A DNA stretch of 64,000 bases from contig JANQPV010000044.1 of NCBI GenBank assembly GCA_028285305.1, forward strand, positions 186,001-250,000. The letters are read 5' to 3'. This stretch comes from Alphaproteobacteria bacterium. GTDB lineage: Bacteria > Pseudomonadota > Alphaproteobacteria > SMXP01. Shown one piece after another: positions 24,055-43,833 of this stretch. The notes beneath the pieces are model-generated. The model worked only from the letters and a program-made list of their open reading frames with translations, searched no databases and was not told the origin of the DNA. A program made the position numbers and the translations under genes. Every line of letters starts with the position of its first letter. Position 1 is the first letter of the stretch.

Positions 24055-24473
24055 TAGTGTCCCGCTTTCGGGCTTTCCATGAGTTCGATCAAAACGCCGT
24101 TGGAGTCCTTGGGATGTACGAAAATGATGAGCGTGCCGTGAGCACCGATCCGGGGTTCATTCAGAACCTTGGCGCCTTTTTCCTCCATGGCGGCTTTGGC
24201 CACATGGATGTCTTCCACTTCGAAACAGACGTGGTGTTGGCCCCCTTTCGGGTTCCGTTCGAGAAACTTCTTAATGGGAGAGTCGTCACCCAATGGCTCG
24301 ATCAGCTCGATCTGGCTGTTGGGTAGATTCACAAAACAATACCGCACGCCTTGTTCCGGCATTTCGCCGGGCTCCGTGATGTCCGTGCAGCCATAAAGGT
24401 CGCGGTAGTTCTGGGCGGCTTCTTCTATGGATGGCACGGCCACGCCGACATGGTTTAACGGACCAACTTGCAT
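24054..24473 (-). CDS. mce: Methylmalonyl-CoA epimerase-like VOC protein
   Basis: 139-residue vicinal-oxygen-chelate protein. The N-terminal NHVGVAVPSIEEAAQNYRDLYG and the QHHVCFEVEDIHVAKAAMEEKGAKVL and VFVHPKDSNGVLIELME-type segments match methylmalonyl-CoA epimerase, including His in NHVG, His in HHVCFEV and Glu in LIELME as metal ligands. ATG 24473 is chosen: GGGAGTCCC lies upstream, and the longer reading from 24491 lacks support. If correct, it acts in propionyl-CoA to succinyl-CoA conversion. It overlaps the YjbR gene by one base. Confidence 0.8.
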   Translation of the reverse strand: MQVGPLNHVGVAVPSIEEAAQNYRDLYGCTDITEPGEMPEQGVRYCFVNLPNSQIELIEPLGDDSPIKKFLERNPKGGQHHVCFEVEDIHVAKAAMEEKGAKVLNEPRIGAHGTLIIFVHPKDSNGVLIELMESPKAGH

Positions 24474-24564
24474 TCTGGGACTCCCTATCAACTTGCAAAG
24501 ATGCTTAGATCAAGCAGAAGGGGCAGAAAACGTCAACACCGGCCCAAAAAACGGGAGGAAACCT

Positions 24565-25017
24565 ATGAGTATGGACGATTTGACCATCCATGAGCGCTTA
24601 TCGATTCAGATGGAGTATGTGGTGCCGCTCATCCGCGATCTGCAGCGGATTCTCGGCGAAGACGTGGTGAATAAGGCCTTAGAGGAGCGTATTCGTCTGC
24701 AGACGGAAGAGGCCAAAGCGGAACCTGTCCAAGAGATCGACACTCAAACCTGGGCAGACGGGTTCGAAATCTACAGTGCGGGGGATGCGCTGGACTTCGA
24801 GATGCAAGAGCTCAACGAGAGCCAAGTGGACGTGAACGTGACGCGCTGCGCCTATGCGGAGATGATGGACAGGCTGGGTGCGCGAGATTTAGGCCCTCAG
24901 CTCATTTGCAACTTGGACTTTCCGATGGCGGAGCGTGCCGGCATGACGCTGACCCGCACGCAAACCCGCATGCAGGGCGCTTCTCATTGCGATTTCCGGT
25001 ACAAGAAAAAGGTCTAA
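24565..25017 (+). CDS. ATC-hydrolase family protein, 150 aa
   Basis: Small cytosolic protein resembling the family of L-2-amino-thiazoline-4-carboxylic acid hydrolase. The conserved tail is visible: TRCAYAEMMDRLGARDLGPQLICNLDFPMAERAG followed by LTRTQTRMQGASHCDFRY, including Cys and Asp/His positions shared with that family. The N-terminal half is helical and not conserved enough to place. ATG 24565 follows GGGAGGAAACCT. Only 3 bp separate it from the SDR at 25021, so they are an operon. The family name rests on one characterised enzyme, so the true substrate is open. Confidence 0.78.
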   Translation: MSMDDLTIHERLSIQMEYVVPLIRDLQRILGEDVVNKALEERIRLQTEEAKAEPVQEIDTQTWADGFEIYSAGDALDFEMQELNESQVDVNVTRCAYAEMMDRLGARDLGPQLICNLDFPMAERAGMTLTRTQTRMQGASHCDFRYKKKV

Positions 25018-25886: not shown

Positions 25887-25988
25887 ATTATTGCGAGAAG
25901 GCAAGGCCCGACGAAGCAATCCAAAGGGCGTTAGACGAGTGGTCTTTGTTCTGGATTGCCGCGGCCGCTATCGCGGCCTCGCAATGAC
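25887..25988. repeat. Intergenic repeat with ATTGCGAG/CTCGCAAT ends
   Basis: 102-bp element whose left end ATTATTGCGAG (25887-25897) and right end CTCGCAATGAC (25978-25988) are inverted repeats with 9 of 11 matches. The interior has GAAGCAATCCA and CTGGATTGC, a second inverted pair, and the GC-rich palindrome GCCGCGGCCGC. Its right end overlaps the last codons of the Rieske gene (stop at 25968-25970), so part of the coding end derives from the repeat. It resembles the very common attgcgag..aagcaatcca elements of Alphaproteobacteria. Confidence 0.75.
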
Positions 25989-26756
25989 GCGCCCATCTTT
26001 CACACCGATGTTCGGGGCTTTGGGCAACTTGCACGTGTGATCCGAAAGCGCCGCGCCGGTGCGTACATCGAACTTATAATCATGCCACGGACAAGAAATC
26101 ACACCATCGGCAATGGGGCTGTCGCCGAGGGGACCCAAGAGATGGGGACAGACGGTTGTGTGTGCGAAGAGTTCGCCGTCCAAGTCTACCAACCGGTACT
26201 CTCGTCCGGCGAATTCAAATGTGAAGGGTAATATGCCGCGTACATCTGCCTCGATGCCAAGATCCACACGATCGGATGTCTCGCGGGGTGCGCGACGGGC
26301 ATCAAGCTGCCGCTGGCGCTCCACCATCATAGCAACGTCTTCGTCATAGAGGGTCGAATAGAGATCCGTGTACGTCTTTCCGACTCGATCTTGTTTCTCC
26401 GGTGGAACACCGGGTACGAAGAAGTCGACAACAATATCCGTTCGAAAGGGTTCTTCGGCAAAGGCATGAGTCCAAATCTCGGTACCGGCGGATCTGCCTT
26501 CTAGGGTGCTTGTGATCCAGCGCCGCGCTTGCCGATCGAGCCGCAATTCGATGATGGATTTGTTGCTCTCGTCGCCGGTTGAGGCAAACTCGGCGCGCCA
26601 ACCCCAATCGCCCGCATCCAGACATTTTATCCAGGCAAAGCTGGACGAGTGCAGGTAAGGCAGGTGCTCCCAATCGAGGGCGTTTTCATAGAGCCGTTCA
26701 AGGCTCACCGGGAGTTGGCGGCGGTAGGACGCCACATGTGGAATAGCGCGTGTCAT
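25968..26756 (-). CDS. Rieske non-heme iron protein with reversed domain order
   Basis: 262-residue protein with two modules in unusual order. The first (about 1-165) carries E24-x3-D28-x2-H31-x4-H36, the exact pattern of the mononuclear-iron site of Rieske oxygenases, and a later acidic pair D138/D140 in LYDEDVAMMVERQ that could give the third ligand. The second (about 172-262) is a Rieske domain with C203-x-H205 and C222-x2-H225 for a 2Fe-2S cluster. In ordinary Rieske oxygenases the Rieske domain comes first. Predicted role: oxygenase or O-demethylase needing an external reductase, substrate unknown. The stop lies inside an intergenic repeat. It diverges from the VOC gene at 26939. Confidence 0.85.
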   Translation of the reverse strand: MTRAIPHVASYRRQLPVSLERLYENALDWEHLPYLHSSSFAWIKCLDAGDWGWRAEFASTGDESNKSIIELRLDRQARRWITSTLEGRSAGTEIWTHAFAEEPFRTDIVVDFFVPGVPPEKQDRVGKTYTDLYSTLYDEDVAMMVERQRQLDARRAPRETSDRVDLGIEADVRGILPFTFEFAGREYRLVDLDGELFAHTTVCPHLLGPLGDSPIADGVISCPWHDYKFDVRTGAALSDHTCKLPKAPNIGVKDGRVIARPR

Positions 26757-31174: not shown

Positions 31175-33058
31175 TTATTCTGCGCTCGCGGCCGCTGCTG
31201 CGTGGATGCGCTCTGCGTTTTCGACGCCAAGTGCTTGTAGCGCGCGATCGACAATGCTGGGTGCGGCCAGACCGGCGAGGGCGACTTGATCTTCCGGTTT
31301 GCCGTGATCAATAAAGAAATCGGGCAGATACATGGGACAGATGCGTGCGATGGCTTCCTGGTTGCCACTTTGCGTGAGGCTCTGAAACACCATGGTGGAA
31401 AAACCGCCAACGGCTGCTTCTTCGATTGTGATCAACACTTCGTGCTCAAGGGCCAAGCGGCGGACCAGATCATCGTCGATGGGCTTGGCAAATCTGGCGT
31501 CGGCCACCGTCGTTGAGAAGCCGAGGGCGCCTAACTTGTCTGCTGCCGCGAGCGAGTCAGCGAGACGCGTACCGTAAGACAGAATCGCGATGCGCGATCC
31601 TTCCCGCAAAATGCGGCCCTTGCCGATTTCGACGGGCGTACCGCGCTCAGGCAACGCAACCCCCGTTCCTTCGCCGCGGGGATACCGGATGGCGCTCGGG
31701 CGATCGTCAATCTGACACGCGGTTGCCACCATGTGGAAAAGTTCGGCTTCGTCCGAAGGCCCCATCAAGACAAAGTTCGGAAGGCAGCCGAGATATGTGA
31801 TGTCGTAGGACCCTTGATGGGTGACCCCATCAGCGCCCACCATTCCGGCACGGTCGATGGCGAACCTGACCGGCAGGCTTTGGATGGCGATGTCGTGGAC
31901 GATCTGGTCGTACGCGCGTTGCAGGAAGGTGGAGTAAATGGCAGCAAAAGGCCTGAATCCTTCGCACGCAAGACCGCCGCAAAATGTCACCGCATGTTGC
32001 TCTGAAATTCCCACGTCGTAGCATCGGTCCGGAAAGGCTGCGCCGAACTTGTCGAGGCCCGTTCCGGACGGCATGGCCGCGGTCACGGCGACGATCTTGT
32101 CGTCCGTCTCGGCCTCTTTCATCAGGGCGGCCGCGAAAACGTTTTGGTAATTAGGCGCCTTCGGTGTTCCCTTCGATTGTTTTCCGTCGATCACATTGAA
32201 TTTGGAAACGCCATGATACTTGTCGGCCGCTGCTTCGGCGGGGGCATAGCCTTTGCCTTTTTCGGTAATGACATGCAACAGAACGGGACCGTCATTGCAT
32301 TCTTTGCAAGAGCCAAGGACGGATACCAATTCCGTCACGTCGTGGCCGTCGACAGGGCCCACATATTTGATCCCGAGATCCTCGAACAAGGTTGGATAAT
32401 TGTGGAAGTTCGGCATGCCGTGATCGGCGATGGCCGACTTTCTGGTTTCGGCATCGGGCATGGCCGCCCGTAACTGCGTTAGATATTCGCTCAAAGCGCC
32501 GCTGGGGGGCGCGATCGACATGTTGTTGTCGTTGAGAATAATCAGCATGGGACGCTTTTGTGCGCCTGCATTGTTCATGGCCTCGTACGCCATGCCGGCC
32601 GTCATTGCACCGTCGCCAATGACAGCGACCACTTTGTTATCGGCGCCGTTATAGTCCCTGGCGGCTGCAAATCCGAGCGCAGCCGAGATAGAAGTCGAAC
32701 TATGGGCGGCGCCAAACGGGTCGTACTCACTTTCTTGGCGGGACGTGAATCCGGAGAGGCCGTCTTTCTGGCGAATCGTGCCCATGCGTTCGCGCCGGCC
32801 CGTCAATACTTTGTGTGGATAGCATTGGTGGCTGACGTCCCAGATTATCTTGTCGCGCGGCGTTTCGAAGACGTGATGCAGAGCGACGGTCAATTCCACC
32901 ACGCCTAATCCGGCGCCCAGATGCCCGCCGGTCTTCGATATGTGATCGATCACATCCGATCTAACTTCATCAGCGAGCTGACATAACTCATCGTTCCCCA
33001 GTTTCCGAATGTCTTCGGTGGACGAGATGGAATCGAGTACCGGTTTTTCTATTGTCAT
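31175..33058 (-). CDS. dxs: 1-deoxy-D-xylulose-5-phosphate synthase Dxs
   Basis: Thiamine-diphosphate enzyme joining pyruvate and glyceraldehyde-3-phosphate, the first step of the MEP isoprenoid route. Motifs: [54 protein letters not shown] (ThDP/Mg region), [13 protein letters not shown] and [19 protein letters not shown] with the catalytic Glu/His context, and the transketolase C-domain at the end. ATG 33058 (after GGGGGAG) is preferred; a GTG at 33109 would add 17 non-conserved residues. About 627 aa, typical. Last gene of ispG-ispA-dxs. Confidence 0.97.
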
Positions 33059-33113
33059 TTTCTTGTTGGCTCCCCCCGCCCGGCTCGATGCCCCCGATGG
33101 CAGGATCACTCGG

Positions 33114-33998
33114 TTAACTTCTTCTATTAACTACAAATCGGGCAACATTTTCAAGATTTCCCGCCCGACCGTTAAAAATTGTGAGCGCTTCGCAGGCGTG
33201 ACCGATGAGCTCGTTCGCTTTTTGCCGTGCGCCTTCAATGCCCATAAGCTTGACGAACGTTGCCTTTTCCATGTCTTGGTCTTGACCGACGGGCTTACCT
33301 AAATCAGCTTCTGTGCCCTCGACATCCAGTAAATCATCGGCGATTTGAAACGCCAGTCCCAGACTCTCAGCGTAGGATCTGAGGGCGCTCAACTCTTTTT
33401 CGCTGCCTTCTCCGAGATAGGCGCCCGCCGTGCACGAGAATTCGAACAAGGCTCCTGTTTTGAGCCGCTGTAATTGAGTAATCTCCCCAATTCCCAAAGG
33501 GGTATTCTCCGACAAAATGTCGATCATCTGTCCACCGACCATACCCTGGTCGCCGGACGCGACCGCTAGAGATGATATGAGGCGCGTTCGAACCGCCGGA
33601 GAAACCTCCATCTCATCTGATGCCAAGACCTCGAACGCCTTCGTCAAAAGGCCGTCGCCTGCCAAGATTGCCGTTGCTTCGTCGAACTCTTTGTGCGCGG
33701 AAGGTCTGCCGCGTCTCAAATCGCTGTCGTCCATCGCGGGCAGATCGTCGTGGATGAGGCTGTAACAATGGATCATTTCGACAGCTGCTGCTGTGCGTGC
33801 CGCCGCGAGGGAAGGCACATCGAAAAGCTCTGAAGAGGATAGAACAAGAAAAGGGCGCAGGCGTTTGCCGCCCGCCAAAGCCGAATAACGCATGGCATCA
33901 ACGACACGGCCACGAGGGCTTTCTTCCTGCGGAAGAAGGGCATCCAGCAACCCCGTAATCTGGTCGCCTGATTCGCGCAGAGAAGCTTCGAATTCCAT
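33114..33998 (-). CDS. ispA: Polyprenyl (farnesyl) diphosphate synthase IspA
   Basis: Trans-prenyltransferase of the FPP/GGPP synthase family (294 aa), making the C15 (or C20) diphosphate that feeds squalene and quinone synthesis. The first Asp-rich motif is [17 protein letters not shown] (around residue 85) and the second [12 protein letters not shown], with [10 protein letters not shown] between. FARM residues fit an IspA-type FPP synthase. The ATG at 33998 shares a base with the ispG stop (TGATG), so translation is coupled, and dxs starts 55 bp further on. Placement beside hopanoid genes matches a precursor role. Confidence 0.93.
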
Positions 33999-35128
33999 CA
34001 GGCGGCGTGTGACGTTTGTTCCGCGGCCCGCTCAGCTTCTAGCTCAACGGCCTTCTTCTCCACCAGCTCGACGATATGGTCGACCAATTTGTCGTTGTCG
34101 AGTTTGTGGTCGGCAACACCGGAAATATAAACCATGCCCGAGCCCGAGCCGCCGCCCGTGAAGCCCAGGTCTGTTTCTCTTGCCTCGCCCGGCCCGTTTA
34201 CGACACACCCGATTATGGACAACGTCATCGGCGTTGCGATGTGTGCAAGACGCTCTTCAAGAATCTCAACCGTTTTGATCACCTCGAAACCTTGACGGGC
34301 GCATGACGGACAAGAGATGATATTGACGCCGCGGTGGCGAAGATTGAGGGCTTTGAGGATATCGAACCCTACTTTGATCTCTTCGACAGGATCGGCGGAC
34401 AACGACACGCGAATGGTGTCACCGATGCCGGCCCACAAGAGGGATCCCAATCCGATTGATGATTTGATGGTTCCCGACATTAAGCCGCCCGCTTCGGTAA
34501 TGCCCAGGTGGAGCGGGTAATCACAAGCTTCGGCCAGTCCGTGATAAGCGGCAACCGCTAGGAATACATCTGATGCTTTGCAGCTAATCTTCGTTTCAAA
34601 GAAATCATTGTCTTCGAGGATCTTGATGTGATTGAGGCCGCTTTCAATCATGGCCTCTGGGCAAGGCTCCCCATACCGCTCGAGCAATTCCTTTTCCAAC
34701 GACCCAGCGTTCACACCGATTCGAATTGAGCAATTGTGGTCCTTGGCCGCTTTCACGACTTCGCGAACGCGATCCGCGGAGCCGATGTTGCCGGGATTAA
34801 TCCGTAGGCACGCTGCCCCGGCTTCGGCCGCTTCGATTGCGCGCTTGTAATGAAAGTGAATATCCGCAACCAACGGAACTGAGACTTGTTTGACAATGTC
34901 TTTGAAGGCCGCTGTCGACTCTTCATCGGGGCAAGAGACCCGAACAACATCCGCTCCCGCGTCTTCCAGGGCTCTGATCTGTGCGACGGTTGCCTTTACA
35001 TCCGTCGTCAGGGTGTTCGTCATTGATTGAACCGCTATCGGCGCGTCGCCTCCAATGGGGACAGGGCCCACATGGATCTGCCGGCATTTGCGGCGCACTA
35101 TTTCGCGATACGGTCGAACACTACTCAT
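33998..35128 (-). CDS. ispG: 4-hydroxy-3-methylbut-2-enyl diphosphate synthase IspG
   Basis: GcpE family, 376 aa. Converts MEcPP to HMBPP with a 4Fe-4S cluster. N-terminal [78 protein letters not shown] and the cluster motif [11 protein letters not shown] then [19 protein letters not shown] are all present. ATG 35128 is chosen over 35185 because the family starts there and GGAGGC precedes it. First gene of the unit ispG-ispA-dxs; it shares one base with ispA. Confidence 0.97.
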
Positions 35129-35611
35129 GAAGCCTCCTGTTGCGATGGGCTGAGCGTATGTAGCGTTCTTCGCCGCGAATCGCAATCTTCAGAAAAGTAT
35201 ACCCGCCACTAACGCAACATAATGACGTGATTTGGAACCCCTGCCGCTTTCGTTGGCGGCTTCGCCGATTGGCTCTCAATAGTGGCGTTTTTGCAACCCT
35301 GCACATCGCTCTCCAATGTGCCGACAAATTCCCGGATTATCTCAAGGGTTGTTTCCCTGGGGCAAAAACATATAAGTGTTGATTTGAGCGTCGCTTTTCG
35401 CGGCGTAACCGGAATTATGAGATTCGAGCATTGCCCTTGTCCGGAGTATTTGCTCAGGTTTCAGCGCGTTTCTTAAGGGGGACCATTTGGTCGGGGATTC
35501 GCGACGTGGGGCCAGGAAAAGGCAACGGCAGGTATTTCGGGCGTAGTCCAAACTCAGTTTAGGCGCGCTCGTTGAAAATCGTGTATTGGCAGGTGAAAAG
35601 GGGTTCACGCC
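35129..35611. other. 483-bp divergent ispG/ispH intergenic region
   Basis: No convincing gene was found here: short frames in either strand lack ribosome-binding sites and family features. It must hold the promoters of ispG-ispA-dxs (leftward) and ispH-hpnH (rightward). A GC-rich stretch (35240-35275) has small inverted repeats such as GCCGC...GCGGC, and CGTCGCTTTTCGCGGCG near 35388 can fold weakly. No tRNA-like T-arm was seen. GGTGAAAAGGGG before ATG 35612 is the likely ispH ribosome site. Confidence 0.5.
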
Positions 35612-36583
35612 ATGACTGTTGAGACGAACGCGCTCACCATCCTACTTGCTGAGCCACGCGGGTTTTGCGCTGGTGTGGAAAGAGCCATCGATATCGTCGA
35701 GCGAGCTCTTGTTAAATACGGGGCGCCCATCTATGTGCGTCACGAAATTGTGCACAACAAACATGTTGTGGAAAATCTAAAGGCACGCGGTGCAATTTTT
35801 GTCGAAGAAGTCGACGAGATCCCTGTTGGTGCGGTGACGATTTTCAGCGCCCACGGTGTGGCACGCAAAGTCGAATCAAATTCTTCGGACAGAGACCTTC
35901 AAGTGATCGACGCGACTTGCCCATTGGTGACTAAAGTTCACAAAGAAGGTCAGCGCTATGCCAAAAAAGACTACGACGTCGTTTTGATTGGCCATCTTGG
36001 TCATCCCGAGGTGGAGGGCACGCTAGGGCAGATTCCCGGTCCGGTTCATGTCGTCTCCGAGCCGGAGGATGTCGCCTCGCTTAAAGTTCGCGATGACGAT
36101 CAAGTGGCGTTCGTGACGCAAACGACGCTGAGTGTGAATGATACGCGCGAAGTCATTGAAGCGCTCAAAGAACGATTTCCCAATATTGTTGGCCCGGATG
36201 TCCGCGATATCTGTTACGCCACACAAAACCGCCAGACGGCAGTTCTTGAAATGGTTGAAAAAGTAAACTTGCTGTTGGTTGTTGGGGCTCAGAACAGCTC
36301 CAATTCGAATCGATTGCGCGAGATTGGCGAAAACCGAGGCGTGCCGAGTTACTTGATCGGCGACTCGTCTGATATGAGTGATGCCTGGTTGGAGGGCGTA
36401 TCTACGGTTGGGATCACGGCTGGTGCGTCGGCGCCTGAAAGTCTTGTGCGGGACGTGATCGAATGGCTGGAGGCGCGATTCGATGTTTCCGTTAAGTCAA
36501 TGGACGGTGTCGAAGAGAATATCGTCTTCAAGCTTCCGCGCGAACTGCAAGACACTCAGCCCCCAGAATTGCGGGCGGTATAG
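35612..36583 (+). CDS. ispH: 4-hydroxy-3-methylbut-2-enyl diphosphate reductase IspH
   Basis: LytB family enzyme (323 aa) giving IPP and DMAPP, the final MEP step. Cluster cysteines lie in [10 protein letters not shown] (Cys20 region), [11 protein letters not shown] (about Cys109) and [12 protein letters not shown] (about Cys205); the substrate His/Ser residues are in [11 protein letters not shown] and [13 protein letters not shown] 35612. It precedes hpnH by 59 bp on the same strand, so the last precursor step is tied to hopanoid side-chain extension. The linkage ispH-hpnH occurs in other hopanoid producers as I recall. Confidence 0.96.
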
Positions 36584-36642
36584 GCAATCAACTCTATAAG
36601 CGTGCGGATTGAATTCAGCTCGGGAAAACGAAGGAGCAAAAA

Positions 36643-37791
36643 GTGGGTGTACCTCTTAGACAGGCCCTGAAAGTTGGCGCCTATGTGCTGACACAAACTT
36701 TGAAGGGCAATAAGCGATATCCGCTTGTGCTCATGCTTGAGCCCCTTTTTAGGTGCAATCTTGCATGTGCCGGATGTGGTAAGATCGATTACCCTGATGC
36801 CATCCTCAACAAAAGACTATCACCGCAAGAATGTTTCGATGCAGTTGATGAGTGCGGAGCCCCTATCGTCGCCATCCCAGGGGGCGAGCCGCTCATCCAC
36901 AAGGAAATTGGGGAAATCGTTGAAGGGATCGTCGCCCGAAAGAAATTCGTTTCTCTGTGTACCAACGCTTTACTGCTGGAAAAGAAGCTCCACCTGTTTA
37001 GGCCGTCTCCTTACCTTTTCTTTTCGGTGCATCTAGACGGTCTCAAAGAAGAGCACGATAAAGCCGTATGTCAGGACGGTGTTTTCGACAAAGCTGTTTC
37101 GGCCATTAAAGCCGCTCAGGAAAAAGGGTTCCAAGTCAACGTCAATGCAACAATCTTCGATGGAACCCCCTCCGACCGGGTGGCGGATTTCCTAGATTAT
37201 TGCGAAGAGATTGGGGTTGGAGGCATTTCGATTTCGCCCGGTTATGCCTATGAGCGCGCACCCAACCAAGAACACTTCTTGACGCGGAAGAAAACCAAAG
37301 AGCTGTTTCGCCGCATTCTTGCTCGCGGAAAGAACCGCAAATGGCCCATCAGTCATTCCGCCCTCTATCTTGATTTCCTCGCCGGAAATCAAACATACGA
37401 GTGCACGCCTTGGGGTAATCCCACGCGCAATGTTTTTGGTTGGCAACGTCCATGTTATCTGCTGGGCGAGGGATATGTCAGCTCGTTCAAAGAATTGATG
37501 GAAACGACGAACTGGGACGACTATGGTACCGGCAACTATGAGAAGTGTGCGGACTGTATGGCGCATTGCGGCTATGAACCGACTGCCGTTGTAGATGCCG
37601 TCAAGAATCCCTTCAAGGCGTTTTGGGTGAGTCTTCGTGGCCCCAAGACCGACGGCGAGATGGCGCCAGAAATCTCTATGGCCGATCAACGTCCAGCCAA
37701 GTATATGCATGAAGAGCTCGTCAAAGCGCAACTAATCGAAATCCACGCGCCGGAGGAAAAGCGGCAAGAACTCGAGAGCACAGCGGCGTAG
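36643..37791 (+). CDS. hpnH: Hopanoid biosynthesis radical SAM protein HpnH
   Basis: Radical SAM enzyme (382 aa) that joins an adenosyl group to diploptene to make adenosylhopane. Cluster motif RCNLACAGCGKIDYP gives Cx3Cx2C near residues 42-49; SAM/Gly-rich IPGGEPLIHKEI follows, and the C-terminal auxiliary part has conserved Cys in CADCMAHCGYEPTAV and SWAY-type regions of HpnH. Starts with GTG at 36643, supported by AAGGAG. It runs opposite to hpnG and overlaps it by 60 bp at the 3' end, so mRNAs are complementary there. Confidence 0.96.
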   Translation: MGVPLRQALKVGAYVLTQTLKGNKRYPLVLMLEPLFRCNLACAGCGKIDYPDAILNKRLSPQECFDAVDECGAPIVAIPGGEPLIHKEIGEIVEGIVARKKFVSLCTNALLLEKKLHLFRPSPYLFFSVHLDGLKEEHDKAVCQDGVFDKAVSAIKAAQEKGFQVNVNATIFDGTPSDRVADFLDYCEEIGVGGISISPGYAYERAPNQEHFLTRKKTKELFRRILARGKNRKWPISHSALYLDFLAGNQTYECTPWGNPTRNVFGWQRPCYLLGEGYVSSFKELMETTNWDDYGTGNYEKCADCMAHCGYEPTAVVDAVKNPFKAFWVSLRGPKTDGEMAPEISMADQRPAKYMHEELVKAQLIEIHAPEEKRQELESTAA

Positions 37792-38436
37792 AGCAGCCGT
37801 TGCTTTTGCGCTGTGCTGGCCCAATCTAATAAGCGCCGGCAAGTCAGATGGGTGAGTTGCCAATCGTGCCATAACGGCGAGCGGTTTGACGCTGCCGTCA
37901 GCAGCCACACTGTTCAATGCGCTTTGCGGGATGACTTGTTCGGATGAATCGGCGATTGCGCGAATAGCAAAGAACGGAATTTTCTCTTCATTTGCGACAC
38001 GGGCGACTTCGTGTGTTTCCATGTCTACGCAATGCGCGCGCGACGTTTGTTGCAATTGCGATTTGGCGGATAGCGTATCGATGATTCGGTCACTGCCAAC
38101 CATGCGTACGGCTTTGATCTCCAACTCAATCTGTTTCGAGGCGTGCTGTGCGGCAGAACACCAGGATTCGCTTGCCGACCATTCCGCGCCATGCGGACCG
38201 GTTACCTCATTCGCATACAAAAGACTTCCCGGGATTAAGTCGTCGGTGAGGGCGCCGGATATGCCGAAGCTGATCAGTGCTCTTGCGCCCTGGGACGCGA
38301 GACGTTTGCTGCAGTCGTAGGCTCTTTCCGCTGAGGCCCCGGAGATACGGATGAGGCGTGATTCGATAACACCGCCCAAGCATTGCGCTTCCGACTTTAG
38401 TCCGCAAACGAATGCTATTTCCGGGGTCTCAGGCAT
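37732..38436 (-). CDS. hpnG: Hopanoid-associated phosphorylase HpnG
   Basis: Nucleoside-phosphorylase-fold protein (234 aa) that removes adenine from adenosylhopane to give (phospho)ribosylhopane. Signature HCVDMETHEVARVA with the catalytic Glu-type residue and FFAIRAIADSSEQVIP match the MTA/SAH nucleosidase-phosphorylase fold and the HpnG subfamily. ATG 38436 overlaps the hpnE stop by 8 bp; hpnF (shc), which usually separates hpnE and hpnG, is absent. Its 3' end overlaps the convergent hpnH by 60 bp. Function assigned by family and context. Confidence 0.9.
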   Translation of the reverse strand: MPETPEIAFVCGLKSEAQCLGGVIESRLIRISGASAERAYDCSKRLASQGARALISFGISGALTDDLIPGSLLYANEVTGPHGAEWSASESWCSAAQHASKQIELEIKAVRMVGSDRIIDTLSAKSQLQQTSRAHCVDMETHEVARVANEEKIPFFAIRAIADSSEQVIPQSALNSVAADGSVKPLAVMARLATHPSDLPALIRLGQHSAKATAALRRCALEFLPLFLRRVDFD

Positions 38437-39694
38437 AAATTGTGTGGGCTTTTACCGCGTCAACGGCCTTATGGCCGGACCGGATTGCGCCTTCAATGGT
38501 GGCCGGTAAGCCGGTATCGGTCCAATCGCCGGCCAAAAACAAGTTGGTAAGTTCCGTCTGCGTTTTTTTTCGTTTGGAGACGCCTTCGATGGATTGATCG
38601 AATGTGGCGCGCTTTTCTCTAATAATCCGTCCTGACTCGTAAGAGGTTTGGCTGAGATCGAGGGCGAGGCGTACTTCGGACCAAAGACTTTCGAGGAGCT
38701 CGTCTTGGGGGATGTCTGCGAATTCGGATGCGGCACTGATTGTTAGGCTGATGATGTCTTCCCGCAGGAACGCCCATTGCGCTTTGGCGTTGACGAGACC
38801 TAAGAGGAACGAGCCTTCAATCGGCTTTGTCGGTTCAGATACCCGATAGTGGGCATTGACAATTACTTCGCCTTCATCGGGAAGGGAGAACCGGGGCAGG
38901 ATCTGAGAGAGGCGCGAAGGTGGGAGCGCCATCACAACGGCTTCACCGATGCGCACGCGCTCCGTTCCTTCATCAAATTCAAGCCCGGTGACGCGTCCCT
39001 CGTCGATCTTCACGCTTTTGAGACGCTGATTGAAACGAATCGGATAGCCTGCGTCTGACAGCATCTGCACTGCCGGTTCGACGAGACTTGGTCCCAGTCC
39101 CTCTTTTGCCAGCATGGGCCGGCACGCGGCGGCGCCTTTTACAAAGGTCTCCCAGAACACCCGGCCGAGTAAATGCGCTGCGCCGATCTCTGGTTTGCTG
39201 TTAAGGACGGCGATGGTCATCGGCTCCCAAAACCGTTCATAGAGAGGGTGATCGCGGGAAACGAGGTCCGACACGGTTTTGTTCTTTCCCGCAAACAAGA
39301 CCGGCAGCATGCTCAGGTAGTCCGTAAGGGATGTATTTGGAATCCGAGTTGCAGACGAAAACGCCCAGAGGGGGACAGGCCCCTCATTGAACTTGACGCT
39401 CCAGCGTTCACCGGTCGCCATGTCATAAAACGGAAAGATCGCTTGCTCAGAAACGTCGAACGGATCTTCGGCGCCAATTTCCTCGACATAGGTGAGAGCG
39501 GATTTGTTGCCGCTTAATAGGAGATGATTTCCGTTGTCAATCAGGTGATCCAGCGTTTTGTCGTAGAACGAACGGCACCTGCCACCGGCCTGGCCGGCGC
39601 TTTCATAAAGGGCAACTTCGAACCCGTCTTTGCATAATCGCACGGCCGCGGCTAAGCCTGCCAGCCCGGCGCCTATGATATGAGCTTTGGGCAT
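38429..39694 (-). CDS. hpnE: Squalene-associated FAD-dependent desaturase HpnE
   Basis: Amine-oxidase-fold flavoprotein (421 aa) that reduces hydroxysqualene to squalene in the HpnCDE pathway. The Rossmann motif AHIIGAGLAGLAAAVRLCKDG is at the N-terminus, followed by RCRSFYD; the C-terminal FAD-contacting part has LFLAGDWTDTGLPATIEGAIRSG. It starts 1 bp after the hpnD stop and overlaps hpnG by 8 bp, so it is translationally linked to both. Length fits the family. Confidence 0.94.
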   Translation of the reverse strand: MPKAHIIGAGLAGLAAAVRLCKDGFEVALYESAGQAGGRCRSFYDKTLDHLIDNGNHLLLSGNKSALTYVEEIGAEDPFDVSEQAIFPFYDMATGERWSVKFNEGPVPLWAFSSATRIPNTSLTDYLSMLPVLFAGKNKTVSDLVSRDHPLYERFWEPMTIAVLNSKPEIGAAHLLGRVFWETFVKGAAACRPMLAKEGLGPSLVEPAVQMLSDAGYPIRFNQRLKSVKIDEGRVTGLEFDEGTERVRIGEAVVMALPPSRLSQILPRFSLPDEGEVIVNAHYRVSEPTKPIEGSFLLGLVNAKAQWAFLREDIISLTISAASEFADIPQDELLESLWSEVRLALDLSQTSYESGRIIREKRATFDQSIEGVSKRKKTQTELTNLFLAGDWTDTGLPATIEGAIRSGHKAVDAVKAHTIYA

Positions 39695-39695
39695 C

Positions 39696-40634
39696 TTAGG
39701 TGGTTTTGTCCTGAAGTGGCGGTGCCAGCATGTACCGCGCTGCGGACATCAGTTTTTGTAGTTTGGTCAGCTTGACGGGACGGGTTGGATCCCAATCGGC
39801 GTCACGCAAGGCGCGCCAGTAGCGTTCATACACGCCCATCATCAACAGCGCCGGCCGGGCGAGACGCCAGTCAAAGTATTGAAGACACTCTCGGGCCTCT
39901 TGAAAGTAGGTCCGTGCCTGTTCCCCAAGTTCCGCGCAGGCCGACTTAGTATTCGGGTGTTGAAGCACTTCGGCTGGGACCACCGTTTTAATACCGTGCC
40001 TGACCAGGATTTCGCGGGGCAGATAGAGACGATCAATTTCCGCATCCTCCGCCACATCACGTAAAATGTTCGTGGTCTGAAGCGCATTTGCCAGTGCTAT
40101 CGCAAAGCGGTCCTCGTGTTCGCCGCCGCCAGCCCTGAAAATCCTCATGGAGAGCATGCCGACTGCGCCAGCGACGCGCCGGCAGTAGGCCAGATAGTCT
40201 TCCATAGACGGGCCTTGAATTGGGCCGCTTGCATCCATCTCCATGCCCTCAAGCAAAAGGGTAAACTCCTCTTTAGGGAGATTGAATCGCACAATTGCTT
40301 CTGCCAACGCTATCCCGGTGAGTTTTGAGGGGTTGCCCTGGTAGATTTGATCGATTTCAACATACCACTCCTTTAAGGCATCAATCTTTTCGTCTCGGGT
40401 GCCTTCTTCGTCGGCGATGTCGTCGATTTCCCGGCAATAAGCATAGACGGCGAACATAGCTTCCCGGCGCTCTTTCGACAAAATGCGCATGCCCGGTCCA
40501 AATGAGGTTCCTGATGCCTCAACGACACTTCGGGCATGGGCGCGGGCTTCGTCGATGCGGCTGAGCGGCTGTGCTTTCGGCTCGGGTGCGCTGACGGGGG
40601 AATGCTGAACTGCGTCGCTCACGGGCGGTGTCAT
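39696..40634 (-). CDS. hpnD: Presqualene diphosphate synthase HpnD
   Basis: Squalene/phytoene-synthase-fold enzyme (312 aa) condensing two FPP to presqualene diphosphate. The first Asp-rich motif is CREIDDIADEEGTRDEK near residues 70-86 and the second LRDVAEDAEIDRLYLP; the LLEGMEMDASGP segment between is also characteristic. It overlaps hpnC by 4 bp and leads hpnE by 1 bp, giving the standard hpnC-hpnD-hpnE order. Feeds hydroxysqualene formation by HpnC. Confidence 0.94.
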   Translation of the reverse strand: MTPPVSDAVQHSPVSAPEPKAQPLSRIDEARAHARSVVEASGTSFGPGMRILSKERREAMFAVYAYCREIDDIADEEGTRDEKIDALKEWYVEIDQIYQGNPSKLTGIALAEAIVRFNLPKEEFTLLLEGMEMDASGPIQGPSMEDYLAYCRRVAGAVGMLSMRIFRAGGGEHEDRFAIALANALQTTNILRDVAEDAEIDRLYLPREILVRHGIKTVVPAEVLQHPNTKSACAELGEQARTYFQEARECLQYFDWRLARPALLMMGVYERYWRALRDADWDPTRPVKLTKLQKLMSAARYMLAPPLQDKTT

Positions 40635-41542
40635 CCTAACTTGAAGGCGCCGCCAAGGATGCCCCCCATGCCGGCGAGCGCGAAGTCCATTTTGGACAAG
40701 GATACCCGTTCAGCGAGGGGATCTTGTCGGCGCAGTTTTGCCGACAGTCTTTTGGCTAACTTGACGATAACGGAAGATTCCATGGCCAGGCGCCGGCTGT
40801 TGAGTGCATTGGGGAGTTGGTTGGCCGTGAAGAGCAATGCATCGACGCCGTCCAGCATCTGGTTCACCGTCTGGCGCATCCCCGGTGAAAATGCGTTTCT
40901 TTTCAAGTCTTCCGTATGCGTGCTGTTCATCTCCATCCAATCTTGCGGGATGTAACAGCGTCTAATTTCCCGTAAATCTTCACCGCAGTCTTGCAAATGA
41001 TTCAGAATCTGTAAGGCTGTACACAGAGCATCCGAGTGCTTATATTTCTGGGGATCTTCGCCGTGTAAGTCGAGGAGGAATTGTCCAACCGGATTGGCGG
41101 AGTATTTGCAATATCCCAGCAAATCATCCCAAGACGTGTACGTGGATTTTATTGCGTCCTGGCGAAAGGCGATCAAGAGATCAATTGCGCGCTGTTGAGA
41201 TACGCCCACTTCGGCAAGGCTTTCTCTGAGAGTGTGCGCCTTTTGATATTCTTCGCCGTAGCCCGGCTTGCCCTTGAGAGCATTTTCAAAGTCATTGAGA
41301 CGCTCAATTTTCTCTTCGCCGGAAAGCTGTTCGTTGTCGGCGATGTCATCGGCGGCTCGCGCAAATGCGTAATAGGCCATCACATGGCTGCGGAGATGGG
41401 CGGGCAACAAGAAAGACCCAACGGGGAAATTCTCGTCGTTATGTCCTTTGCCCGATGGTGTTTCGGCATCGCTGCGCGGTGCGTTGAGTGCTTTTTCAAA
41501 TGCTGCTATCTCACTGCGCCGAGCCGGTTGTTGGGTGGTCAT
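40631..41542 (-). CDS. hpnC: Squalene synthase HpnC
   Basis: Trans-isoprenyl-diphosphate-synthase-fold enzyme (303 aa) converting presqualene diphosphate to hydroxysqualene. Motifs: FARAADDIADNEQLSGEEK near residues 54-72, DLHGEDP (residues 158-164), LQILNHLQDCGEDLREIRRCYIP near 171-193. The Asp-rich motifs are intact. First gene of hpnC-hpnD-hpnE-hpnG, divergent from hpnB across about 110 bp, with an inverted repeat between the starts (41558-41594). Confidence 0.94.
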   Translation of the reverse strand: MTTQQPARRSEIAAFEKALNAPRSDAETPSGKGHNDENFPVGSFLLPAHLRSHVMAYYAFARAADDIADNEQLSGEEKIERLNDFENALKGKPGYGEEYQKAHTLRESLAEVGVSQQRAIDLLIAFRQDAIKSTYTSWDDLLGYCKYSANPVGQFLLDLHGEDPQKYKHSDALCTALQILNHLQDCGEDLREIRRCYIPQDWMEMNSTHTEDLKRNAFSPGMRQTVNQMLDGVDALLFTANQLPNALNSRRLAMESSVIVKLAKRLSAKLRRQDPLAERVSLSKMDFALAGMGGILGGAFKLG

Positions 41543-41557
41543 AACTCATTCCCGTTG

Positions 41558-41594
41558 GTGTTCTGCGACGTTACTGATGCCATGCGGAGAACAC
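41558..41594. promoter_or_regulatory. Inverted repeat in hpnC/hpnB divergent promoter
   Basis: GTGTTCTGCG (41558-41567) and CGGAGAACAC (41585-41594) are inverted copies with 9 of 10 matches, separated by 17 bp, between the starts of hpnC and hpnB. Such a spaced palindrome in a divergent promoter is a plausible binding site for a dimeric regulator or a stem-loop. No regulator gene is adjacent. Confidence 0.45.
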
Positions 41595-41654
41595 AAGGTC
41601 AGCCGCCAGTCGTCGTTTTGGGGCTTATACCAAGTCTCGGTGGAGATGGAAATC

Positions 41655-42845
41655 ATGACGATTTTGTCCGCGATTGCCTGGTTGAGTTTTGCCGCATGGG
41701 TCTATCTCGCCTTCTTTCACGGGGGGTTTTGGCGGGCGAACCAAGTCTTACCAGGGGGGCGAGGGGGGCTCAGCTCCGCGCCACGGGTCGTGGCTTGCAT
41801 TCCCGCCCGGGATGAAGCCGAAACAATCGGCGCTGTTGTCACGTCCCATCTGCGCTCGACATTTCCCGGTGGCTACCATGTTGTCTTGGTGGATGATCAT
41901 AGTTCGGATGGCACAGGAGACATCGCGCGTCAGGTGGAAGAAGACGCGGGGTCTGCCAACCCGGTTTCGCTCAGAATTGTATCGGCGCCAAAGCTCGAGA
42001 TGGGATGGACCGGAAAGCTGTGGGCTCTGCGGCAGGCGGTTGAAAAGGCGCAACAATATTGGCCGGACGCGGACTACTATCTCTTCACGGACGCCGATAT
42101 TGTTTATGAACCCGACGCCCTTGAGAGGCTGGTCGCACATGCGCGGCAAGGCGGATATGCACTGACGTCAGTTATGGCCAAGTTGGATGCGCGCGGTGTC
42201 TGGGCCAGTGTGTTGATTCCAGCCTTTGTCTATTTCTTTCAAAAACTCTATCCGTTCGCTCGCGTCAACGACGGTGGCAACCCGACCGCTGGGGCGGCTG
42301 GGGGTTGTGCGCTCGTTCATGTCCAAAGTCTTCTTGATGCGGGGGGATTGGAAACAATCAAAGGCGAGCTCATTGATGATTGTGCGCTTGCGCGCTCGAT
42401 CAAAGGAACACCGCCGCGACGACGGATCTGGTTGGGCTTTGATTCGGGTGTCCGGAGTTTGCGGGACAATCGTTCCTTAGCGTCGGTTTGGAACATGGTC
42501 GCGCGGACCGCGTACACGCAGCTCAACTATTCCATCTTATTGCTTGTCGGAACCGTCTTTGGAATGACGTTGATTTATCTCGTCCCGCCCGTTTCGATCG
42601 CTGCTTTTCCGCTCCATCAGAACGAGGAAGTTCTCTTGGCGGGTTGCTTGGGCTATTTTCTGATGGCGCTCACCTTTATCCCCACTTTAAAAGGGTATGA
42701 CAAGCCTGCCCTCTTTGCTTTCCTTCTACCCCTGGCTGCCTTGGCTTATACGGCAATGACCATTCACTCGGCCATTCGCCATTGGCGGGGGCGGGGAGGG
42801 ATGTGGAAAGGACGGTCTTATTCTGGGCCCTCTACGATTCCTTAG
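41655..42845 (+). CDS. hpnB: Hopanoid-associated glycosyltransferase HpnB
   Basis: Membrane-linked GT-A family 2 glycosyltransferase, 396 aa. N-terminal hydrophobic segment, then VACIPARDEAETIGAVVTSH and VVLVDDHSSDGT (nucleotide-sugar site), the DxD motif in FTDADIVYEPD, and several C-terminal TM helices (about residues 285-380) as in HpnB. ATG 41655 lies 9 bases after GGTGGAG; ATG 41646 is a close alternative and a longer frame from 41448 would overlap hpnC. Thought to act in hopanoid head-group assembly, but its reaction is not settled. It overlaps hpnA by 14 bp, convergent. Confidence 0.9.
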   Translation: MTILSAIAWLSFAAWVYLAFFHGGFWRANQVLPGGRGGLSSAPRVVACIPARDEAETIGAVVTSHLRSTFPGGYHVVLVDDHSSDGTGDIARQVEEDAGSANPVSLRIVSAPKLEMGWTGKLWALRQAVEKAQQYWPDADYYLFTDADIVYEPDALERLVAHARQGGYALTSVMAKLDARGVWASVLIPAFVYFFQKLYPFARVNDGGNPTAGAAGGCALVHVQSLLDAGGLETIKGELIDDCALARSIKGTPPRRRIWLGFDSGVRSLRDNRSLASVWNMVARTAYTQLNYSILLLVGTVFGMTLIYLVPPVSIAAFPLHQNEEVLLAGCLGYFLMALTFIPTLKGYDKPALFAFLLPLAALAYTAMTIHSAIRHWRGRGGMWKGRSYSGPSTIP

Positions 42846-43833
42846 TTGGTATCAGATCGTTTTGTTCGAACCAGTTGATCTGATCACGGAGCGAGTCTTT
42901 CAGGGGACGGTATCTAAAGCCGAGTTCGTTGCTTGCCTTTGTGTTATCGAAATCGATGGGATACCCAGCCAACCGAACGCCTGTAAGCGGCGCGGTTGGC
43001 GGTTTGCGCGAAAAGGTGTCTGCGATCCACTCGTCGACAAGGGCGACCGTATGGGCCAGCCAAAAGGGGACCCGGGTTTGAGGCATCGAACGCGCACTGA
43101 CATCCGATAGACTTTCGAGGAATTGCGAAAGCCACATATTGTCTCCGCACGCGAAATACCGCTCTCCGCTGGTGCCTTGGTCTCGTGCGGCGATGTGAGC
43201 GGCCGCAAGATCGCGGACATCGACAAAGTTCATCCGGGTTTCCAGAAACGCAGGGGTCTTTCCGGACAGATAGTCGAGTATCATACGGGTCGGGCCGGTG
43301 AGATTGTGGTCGCCGGGGCCAATGGGAAGTGTGGGGATCACAATCACGGCATCCAGCCCTGAACCAACGCCTTGGCGAACCGCAGCTTCGGCGAGCCATT
43401 TGGAGCGTGGATAGGGCCCAAGCAGATCTGAGAGGGGGGGCTGCACGGTTTCATCAACTTTGTGGAGACGCCGCGATGTCGCCGTGCCAACCGAAATTGT
43501 GAGGCTTGATGTGTGCACTAATCGCTGGACACCTGCATTAAGGGCGCCTTGAACAATGTTCTTTGTGCCCTGATGGTTGACGTTCTCAAAGACATGCTTG
43601 TTTCTTGCCCAGAGAAAGGCGTTGGCAGCGACGTGGAAGACTGCATCGATGTTCTGCGTGACCTTGGAGACTATCGCCTGGTCCGTGATCGATCCTTGTA
43701 CAAACTCGATGGCGCCGGGAAGGTCTTGGGGTTGCTGAATATCGAGAACCCGTACCGTCTCGCCGCGCTCGACGAGCTGCTTGACAATCTGATGTCCAAT
43801 GAAGCCGCTGCCGCCCGTCACCAAATTTCGCAT
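42832..43833 (-). CDS. hpnA: Hopanoid-associated sugar epimerase HpnA
   Basis: NAD-dependent epimerase/dehydratase (extended SDR) of 333 aa. The N-terminal LVTGGSGFIGHQIVKQL binds the cofactor; HVAANAFLW and TSSLTISVGT carry the active-site Ser/Thr, and YPRSKWLAE holds the catalytic Tyr-Lys pair. This fits the HpnA family, with an undefined role in hopanoid synthesis. It follows the paraoxonase-like gene by 2 bp, closing the hpnM-sulfotransferase-PON-hpnA unit, and is convergent with hpnB. Confidence 0.92.
   Translation of the reverse strand: MRNLVTGGSGFIGHQIVKQLVERGETVRVLDIQQPQDLPGAIEFVQGSITDQAIVSKVTQNIDAVFHVAANAFLWARNKHVFENVNHQGTKNIVQGALNAGVQRLVHTSSLTISVGTATSRRLHKVDETVQPPLSDLLGPYPRSKWLAEAAVRQGVGSGLDAVIVIPTLPIGPGDHNLTGPTRMILDYLSGKTPAFLETRMNFVDVRDLAAAHIAARDQGTSGERYFACGDNMWLSQFLESLSDVSARSMPQTRVPFWLAHTVALVDEWIADTFSRKPPTAPLTGVRLAGYPIDFDNTKASNELGFRYRPLKDSLRDQINWFEQNDLIPTKES

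Follow-up and report, generated by a model that had tools for sequence, protein, structure and literature searches.

A Rieske oxygenase-like protein family with its catalytic domain ahead of a ferredoxin-type Rieske domain

Can a Rieske oxygenase be built with its two domains in reversed order? The question is raised by a gene in the window studied here (i.e., the whole 64-kb stretch of DNA that was analysed). A sequence-only reading described an iron-binding motif placed before a C-terminal Rieske centre, and proposed that the protein is a compact, possibly circularly permuted oxygenase. All the residues named in that reading, those of the iron motif, D138 and D140, and the Rieske ligands C203, H205, C222 and H225, are present in the open reading frame, whose parts are collected in Table 1. 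In a Pfam scan of the query, the Rieske profile PF00355 matches residues 176–239 with an E-value of 5.6e-10, above the Pfam cut-off, and the N-terminal half shows sub-threshold matches only, to VanA_C and Ring_hydroxyl_A.

Table 1. Location of the gene and of the parts of its product (positions in the window)
Feature	Position	Strand	Basis or remarks
Catalytic-domain-first Rieske oxygenase-like protein, whole gene	25968..26756	minus	262 aa, ATG start
N-terminal helix-grip (SRPBCC/START-type) catalytic domain, residues 1-158	26283..26756	minus	AlphaFold2 model, dicamba monooxygenase superposition, VanA_C, hhalign
Iron motif E24-N25-x2-D28-x2-H31-x4-H36 (two His ligands and bridging Asp, predicted)	26649..26687	minus	invariant 42/42; SxtT spacing
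D138-E139-D140 on helix 119-153; D140 best candidate for third iron ligand	26337..26345	minus	invariant 42/42; hhalign; 3gke offset
C-terminal ferredoxin-type Rieske [2Fe-2S] domain, residues ~164-262	25971..26267	minus	PF00355, Foldseek, tree
Rieske ligands C203-x-H205-x16-C222-x2-H225	26082..26150	minus	invariant in 41/41 complete members

Distribution, conservation and domain order

A search through public genomes of bacteria and archaea yielded 37 loci. In 36 of them, 35 complete and one cut by a contig end, the relative matches the query beyond the Rieske domain; in the other one (L037) the match is confined to the Rieske part. Nearly all of these 36 relatives are found in gammaproteobacterial MAGs. 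The extra members came from a sample of the window's phylum and another of its class, where two of 398 and five of 385 genomes, respectively, carry the gene, the window's own genome included in both counts; the family is thus genuine, although sparsely represented. In total it comprises 42 members with the query, of which 41 are complete and one is partial. The Binatia and Saprospiraceae matches (L003 and L016), both located on MAG contigs, could be the result of transfer or contamination. No relative was found in the viral contigs searched, and the plasmids searched gave matches to the Rieske domain only, none of which covers 80% of the query. Likewise, no stand-alone N-terminal domain lacking a Rieske domain was detected in the 385 genomes of the class (E 1e-6).

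Residues E24, N25, D28, H31, H36, D138, E139 and D140 are invariant in the alignment of the 42 members, as are W29, L32 and P33, and the four Rieske ligands C203, H205, C222 and H225 are invariant in the 41 complete ones. Since the mean column identity is just 47% (33-row alignment), the strict conservation of the ligands (42/42 and 41/41) argues that the motif did not arise by chance, and the initial doubt that it might not be conserved in homologues is dispelled. In two members (L020:10001-10915 and L027:3365-4240), the catalytic domain is enlarged by an insertion of approximately 30–45 residues, located behind approximately residue 59 of the query.

All 41 complete members have the iron motif ahead of the Rieske motif, so that the order first noticed in a single chain is a property of the family. 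As a control, the conventional oxygenases of the same genome with a checkable reading frame were inspected (28 rows, 26 distinct genes); in every row the Rieske motif comes first and the H-x4-H motif lies more than 80 residues downstream, and the query is the sole reversed-order protein seen among the Rieske oxygenases checked in its genome. With 34 Rieske matches in 5.4 Mb, this genome looks rich in oxygenases.

The sequence definition of Rieske oxygenases includes the catalytic motif D-x2-H-x3,4-H-xn-D (PMC5209329), which in this family corresponds to D28-x2-H31-x4-H36 ... D140, present in 42 of 42 members. The Rieske motif C-x-H-xn-C-x2-H expected of an alpha subunit is found on the same chain in 41 of 41; in contrast, the expected Rieske-first order is reversed in all of them. 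Nor is the Rieske domain a small stand-alone protein, as a Rieske-type ferredoxin would be: in the 41 complete members it follows the catalytic domain in one fused chain. Given that both sequence motifs of the definition are present and the domain order is not the one expected, the protein, which presumably functions as Rieske oxygenases do, should be named a reversed-order variant and not an ordinary member of the group. We found no description of a back-to-front Rieske oxygenase in the searchable literature; a search for permuted, C-terminal-Rieske or reversed-order oxygenases returned nothing relevant, which, given its open-access scope, is weak evidence of absence.

The N-terminal domain and its putative iron site

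Comparison of 18 N-terminal domains of the family with Pfam profiles, using an E-value limit of 1, showed matches to VanA_C for 17 of them (best E 8.6e-7), to Ring_hydroxyl_A for seven and to KshA_C for five. In agreement with this, the alignment of the family with ten conventional oxygenases of the same genome by hhalign extends over 132 columns with an E-value of 1.2e-5 and a moderate probability of 81%, and it pairs the D-E-D residues of the family with the D-E-D residues of the conventional enzymes. A PDB profile search with the N-terminal domain alone gave no meaningful match, the best one being a ribosomal protein (E 0.47); therefore, the homology of this domain to known oxygenases rests on the Pfam profiles and on the oxygenases of the same genome. 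Together these comparisons identify it as a homologue of the catalytic domains of known oxygenases, with support that is moderate and not overwhelming.

In SxtT, the corresponding residues are N158, D161, H164 and H169, followed by D280, and Asp161, together with one other residue, links the Rieske cluster to the iron where two subunits meet (PMC7293229). The N-x2-D-x2-H-x4-H spacing of the family is equal to that of SxtT (compared with PMC7293229).

The single-chain AlphaFold2 model, obtained with the family alignment, has a mean pLDDT of 93.1 and a pTM of 0.81. Its N-terminal domain consists of seven strands of at least three residues and a long C-terminal helix (residues 119–153) that carries D138–D140, and the linker into the Rieske domain is a stretch of lower confidence (block 151–160, pLDDT 76). 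The best Foldseek matches were Rieske ferredoxins for the C-terminal half and START/PR-10-type proteins for the N-terminal half. With VIA-align, the top matches of the model were PR-10/Bet v 1 and polyketide-cyclase proteins, with Z values of up to 16.0, and dicamba monooxygenase (3gke/3gb4) gave a Z of 14.0–14.5 over approximately 150 aligned residues. In the match to 3gke, residues 2–155 of the model correspond to 131–309 of the chain. If the pairing within the match is read from its two ends, H31 and H36 would fall on chain positions 160 and 165 (offset of 129, at the start) and D140 on position 294 (offset of 154, at the end); these three positions are the iron ligands of dicamba monooxygenase. 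The third iron ligand had been suggested to be D138 or D140; although D138 is also invariant, the hhalign pairing and the 3gke offset point to D140 as the best candidate to complete the site with H31 and H36.

Since the Z values of the PR-10 and polyketide-cyclase proteins are as high as those of the oxygenase or higher, the fold by itself would not tell an oxygenase from a START protein, and the assignment of the iron site comes from sequence conservation and profile homology, which do appear to separate them. A START-like N-terminal half lacking an iron site had been named as the finding that would speak against an oxygenase; the fold is indeed of the START/helix-grip type, but the predicted iron site is kept without variation, as in true Rieske oxygenase catalytic domains, and for this reason the objection does not hold.

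Origin of the Rieske domain

A maximum-likelihood tree of 52 Rieske domains (16 from the family, 10 from Rieske ferredoxins or ferredoxin-like domains and 26 from conventional oxygenases) separates the family plus the ferredoxins from the conventional oxygenases with support of 95/92, evidence that is good but not final, because most of the ferredoxins were chosen for matching the query and all the oxygenases come from one genome. The family forms a single group (100/98), and a smaller tree agreed with the ferredoxin grouping. The nearest neighbour of the family in the tree is the Rieske domain of a Thermus plasmid protein (L089:901-1758; 94/91), which is annotated as NifU family and carries a C-terminal Rieske motif. 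The second half of the Rieske motif reads C-x-W-H in the 41 complete members, versus C-x-Y/F-H in 27 of the 28 rows of conventional enzymes from the same genome; the C-x-H-R-G pattern, present in most conventional enzymes, is also missing from the family, and the best NCBIfam and PDB matches of the query are mostly ferredoxins. The domain is thus of the ferredoxin kind and not of the oxygenase-alpha kind.

These results bear on how the protein came about. A true circular permutation would mean that both halves derive from one conventional Rieske oxygenase with the order switched, and the homology of the N-terminal domain to oxygenase catalytic domains, as well as the bridging Asp, which suggests the same domain pairing, would agree with this; but the grouping with ferredoxins against oxygenase domains in both trees, the C-x-W-H and missing C-x-H-R-G signatures and the ferredoxin-like best matches make it improbable. 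Therefore, a fusion between an oxygenase catalytic domain and a Rieske ferredoxin fits better than the permutation of a single ancestral oxygenase, and it is probably the simplest history. Of the original proposal, a compact, oxygenase-like chain with reversed order, a conserved 2-His-1-carboxylate motif and a bridging Asp has stood, whereas the circular permutation is probably wrong.

Another explanation concerns the N-terminal domain, which might be a START/SRPBCC ligand-binding domain devoid of catalysis, the fusion being an electron carrier or a sensor. The helix-grip fold, with its higher Z to PR-10/Bet v 1 proteins and polyketide cyclases, and the fact that no reductase gene was recognised beside the family gene in the loci examined are in line with this idea. 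It is nevertheless given little credit, in view of the complete E-N-x2-D-x2-H-x4-H ... D set found in 42 of 42 members and of the profile searches, which point to oxygenase catalytic domains; moreover, the invariant bridging Asp would be superfluous in a ligand-binding domain standing alone.

Proposed function and gene neighbourhood

In 25 of the 42 loci an enoyl-CoA hydratase gene is located at most 4 kb from the gene, mostly immediately tail to tail, a count that includes many related lineages and so does not represent independent cases. In G380, a class-mate of the window's genome, the gene comes on the same strand after genes for enoyl-CoA hydratase, alkyl-sulfatase-like, two acyl-CoA dehydrogenase-like and nitronate-monooxygenase-like proteins, and neighbouring genes are shared with a gammaproteobacterial MAG, a resemblance from which the window's genome was judged to be probably of gammaproteobacterial origin as well. 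In two other genomes (G406 and G524) its immediate upstream neighbour is a carboxyltransferase gene, with a gap of 3–5 bases. In the window, the neighbours encode a glyoxalase-like protein, two short-chain dehydrogenases, an ATC-hydrolase-like protein and an AMP-binding enzyme. Acyl-CoA-linked metabolism is thus the recurring theme of these neighbourhoods.

Other features of the loci were also recorded. The gene comes after that of a class I tRNA synthetase, probably for isoleucine, in many of the gammaproteobacterial loci; in L007, L012, L018, L023, L028, L032, L036 and similar loci this upstream synthetase carries DUF5915 and the enoyl-CoA hydratase gene is tail to tail, and genes for an alpha-L-rhamnosidase and a luciferase-like monooxygenase are recurrent as well. 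The protein encoded at positions 24427-25017 of the window, adjoining a short-chain dehydrogenase gene, matches L-2-amino-thiazoline-4-carboxylic acid hydrolase (PF14196). Scans of the 64-kb window for tRNAs and Rfam families found nothing.

From the evidence presented above, we consider the protein, with a probability of roughly three in four, to be a Rieske-type non-heme iron oxygenase of reversed order, made of a VanA/KshA/dicamba-type catalytic domain and a ferredoxin-type Rieske domain and acting in an acyl-CoA-linked pathway; its most likely function would be that of an O2-dependent monooxygenase. According to this model, Fe(II) would be held by H31, H36 and D140; N25 would belong to the second shell, and the bridging aspartate would be D28. 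The Rieske domain, placed behind a short linker, would be reduced by a reductase whose gene lies elsewhere, and the electrons would pass from the [2Fe-2S] centre through D28 to the iron, either of a neighbouring subunit of an oligomer or of the same chain. The iron would then activate O2 and hydroxylate, or oxidatively demethylate, a small hydrophobic substrate. Among the observations that count against an oxygenase, besides the fold matches and the moderate hhalign probability, are the lack of a recognised reductase gene next door in the loci examined, already mentioned, and the Trp that precedes the second Rieske His in place of the conventional Tyr/Phe.

In characterised Rieske oxygenases the two metal sites are approximately 44–45 Å apart within one chain, and in CntA the cluster and the iron are approximately 12 Å apart across subunits (PMC7293229, PMC7948474). 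This use of the neighbouring subunit argues against a variant of the oxygenase model in which the Rieske domain docks on its own catalytic domain, transferring electrons within one chain and not in a trimer; on the other hand, the short linker varies and is modelled with lower confidence, and a ferredoxin origin need not bring the conventional trimer geometry, so that this variant is regarded as possible but not the one to be expected. Somewhat more speculative is the idea of an independently assembled lineage, whose catalytic domain lost, or never had, a Rieske domain of its own and gained a C-terminal ferredoxin, giving rise to a minimal enzyme of 260 residues, perhaps monomeric and with transfer within the chain. 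As for the substrate, the window holds at 31175-43833, starting approximately 4.4 kb from the gene, an isoprenoid/hopanoid-type cluster (DXS, polyprenyl synthase, GcpE, LytB, a DUF3463 radical SAM protein, PNP-like and amine-oxidase-like proteins, and a squalene/phytoene synthase, SQS_PSY). This proximity could suggest that the protein modifies hopanoids or squalene-derived lipids; yet it is very unlikely, since homologues elsewhere adjoin genes for tRNA synthetase, enoyl-CoA hydratase, carboxyltransferase and acyl-CoA dehydrogenases, and no hopanoid genes were identified at those loci.

The reversed-order oxygenase proposed here resembles the alpha-only Rieske monooxygenases VanA (vanillate O-demethylase), KshA, DdmC (dicamba monooxygenase) and SxtT in having a helix-grip catalytic domain, the N-x2-D-x2-H-x4-H motif with a distal Asp, and a Rieske domain on the same chain. 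It differs from them in the order of the domains, in its length (approximately 260 residues, with a catalytic domain of about 155, versus approximately 330–400) and in the ferredoxin type of its Rieske domain. This last domain is similar by profile, fold and tree to Rieske ferredoxins such as AndAb, MocE and those of naphthalene, biphenyl and carbazole dioxygenases, which unlike it are separate small proteins. The fold of the N-terminal domain is shared with START/SRPBCC proteins (PR-10/Bet v 1, polyketide cyclases); these have no Rieske domain and are not known to carry a 2-His-1-Asp iron motif of this kind.

Definitions based on domain order would miss or mis-annotate this family. As a very compact chain with both predicted metal sites, the protein would be relevant for enzyme engineering. 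In descriptions of Rieske oxygenases, the Rieske domain comes first in the chain and electrons pass from one subunit of a trimer to another; a conserved family with the reversed order and a Rieske domain apparently derived from a ferredoxin offers a natural way to test which features of this design are essential.
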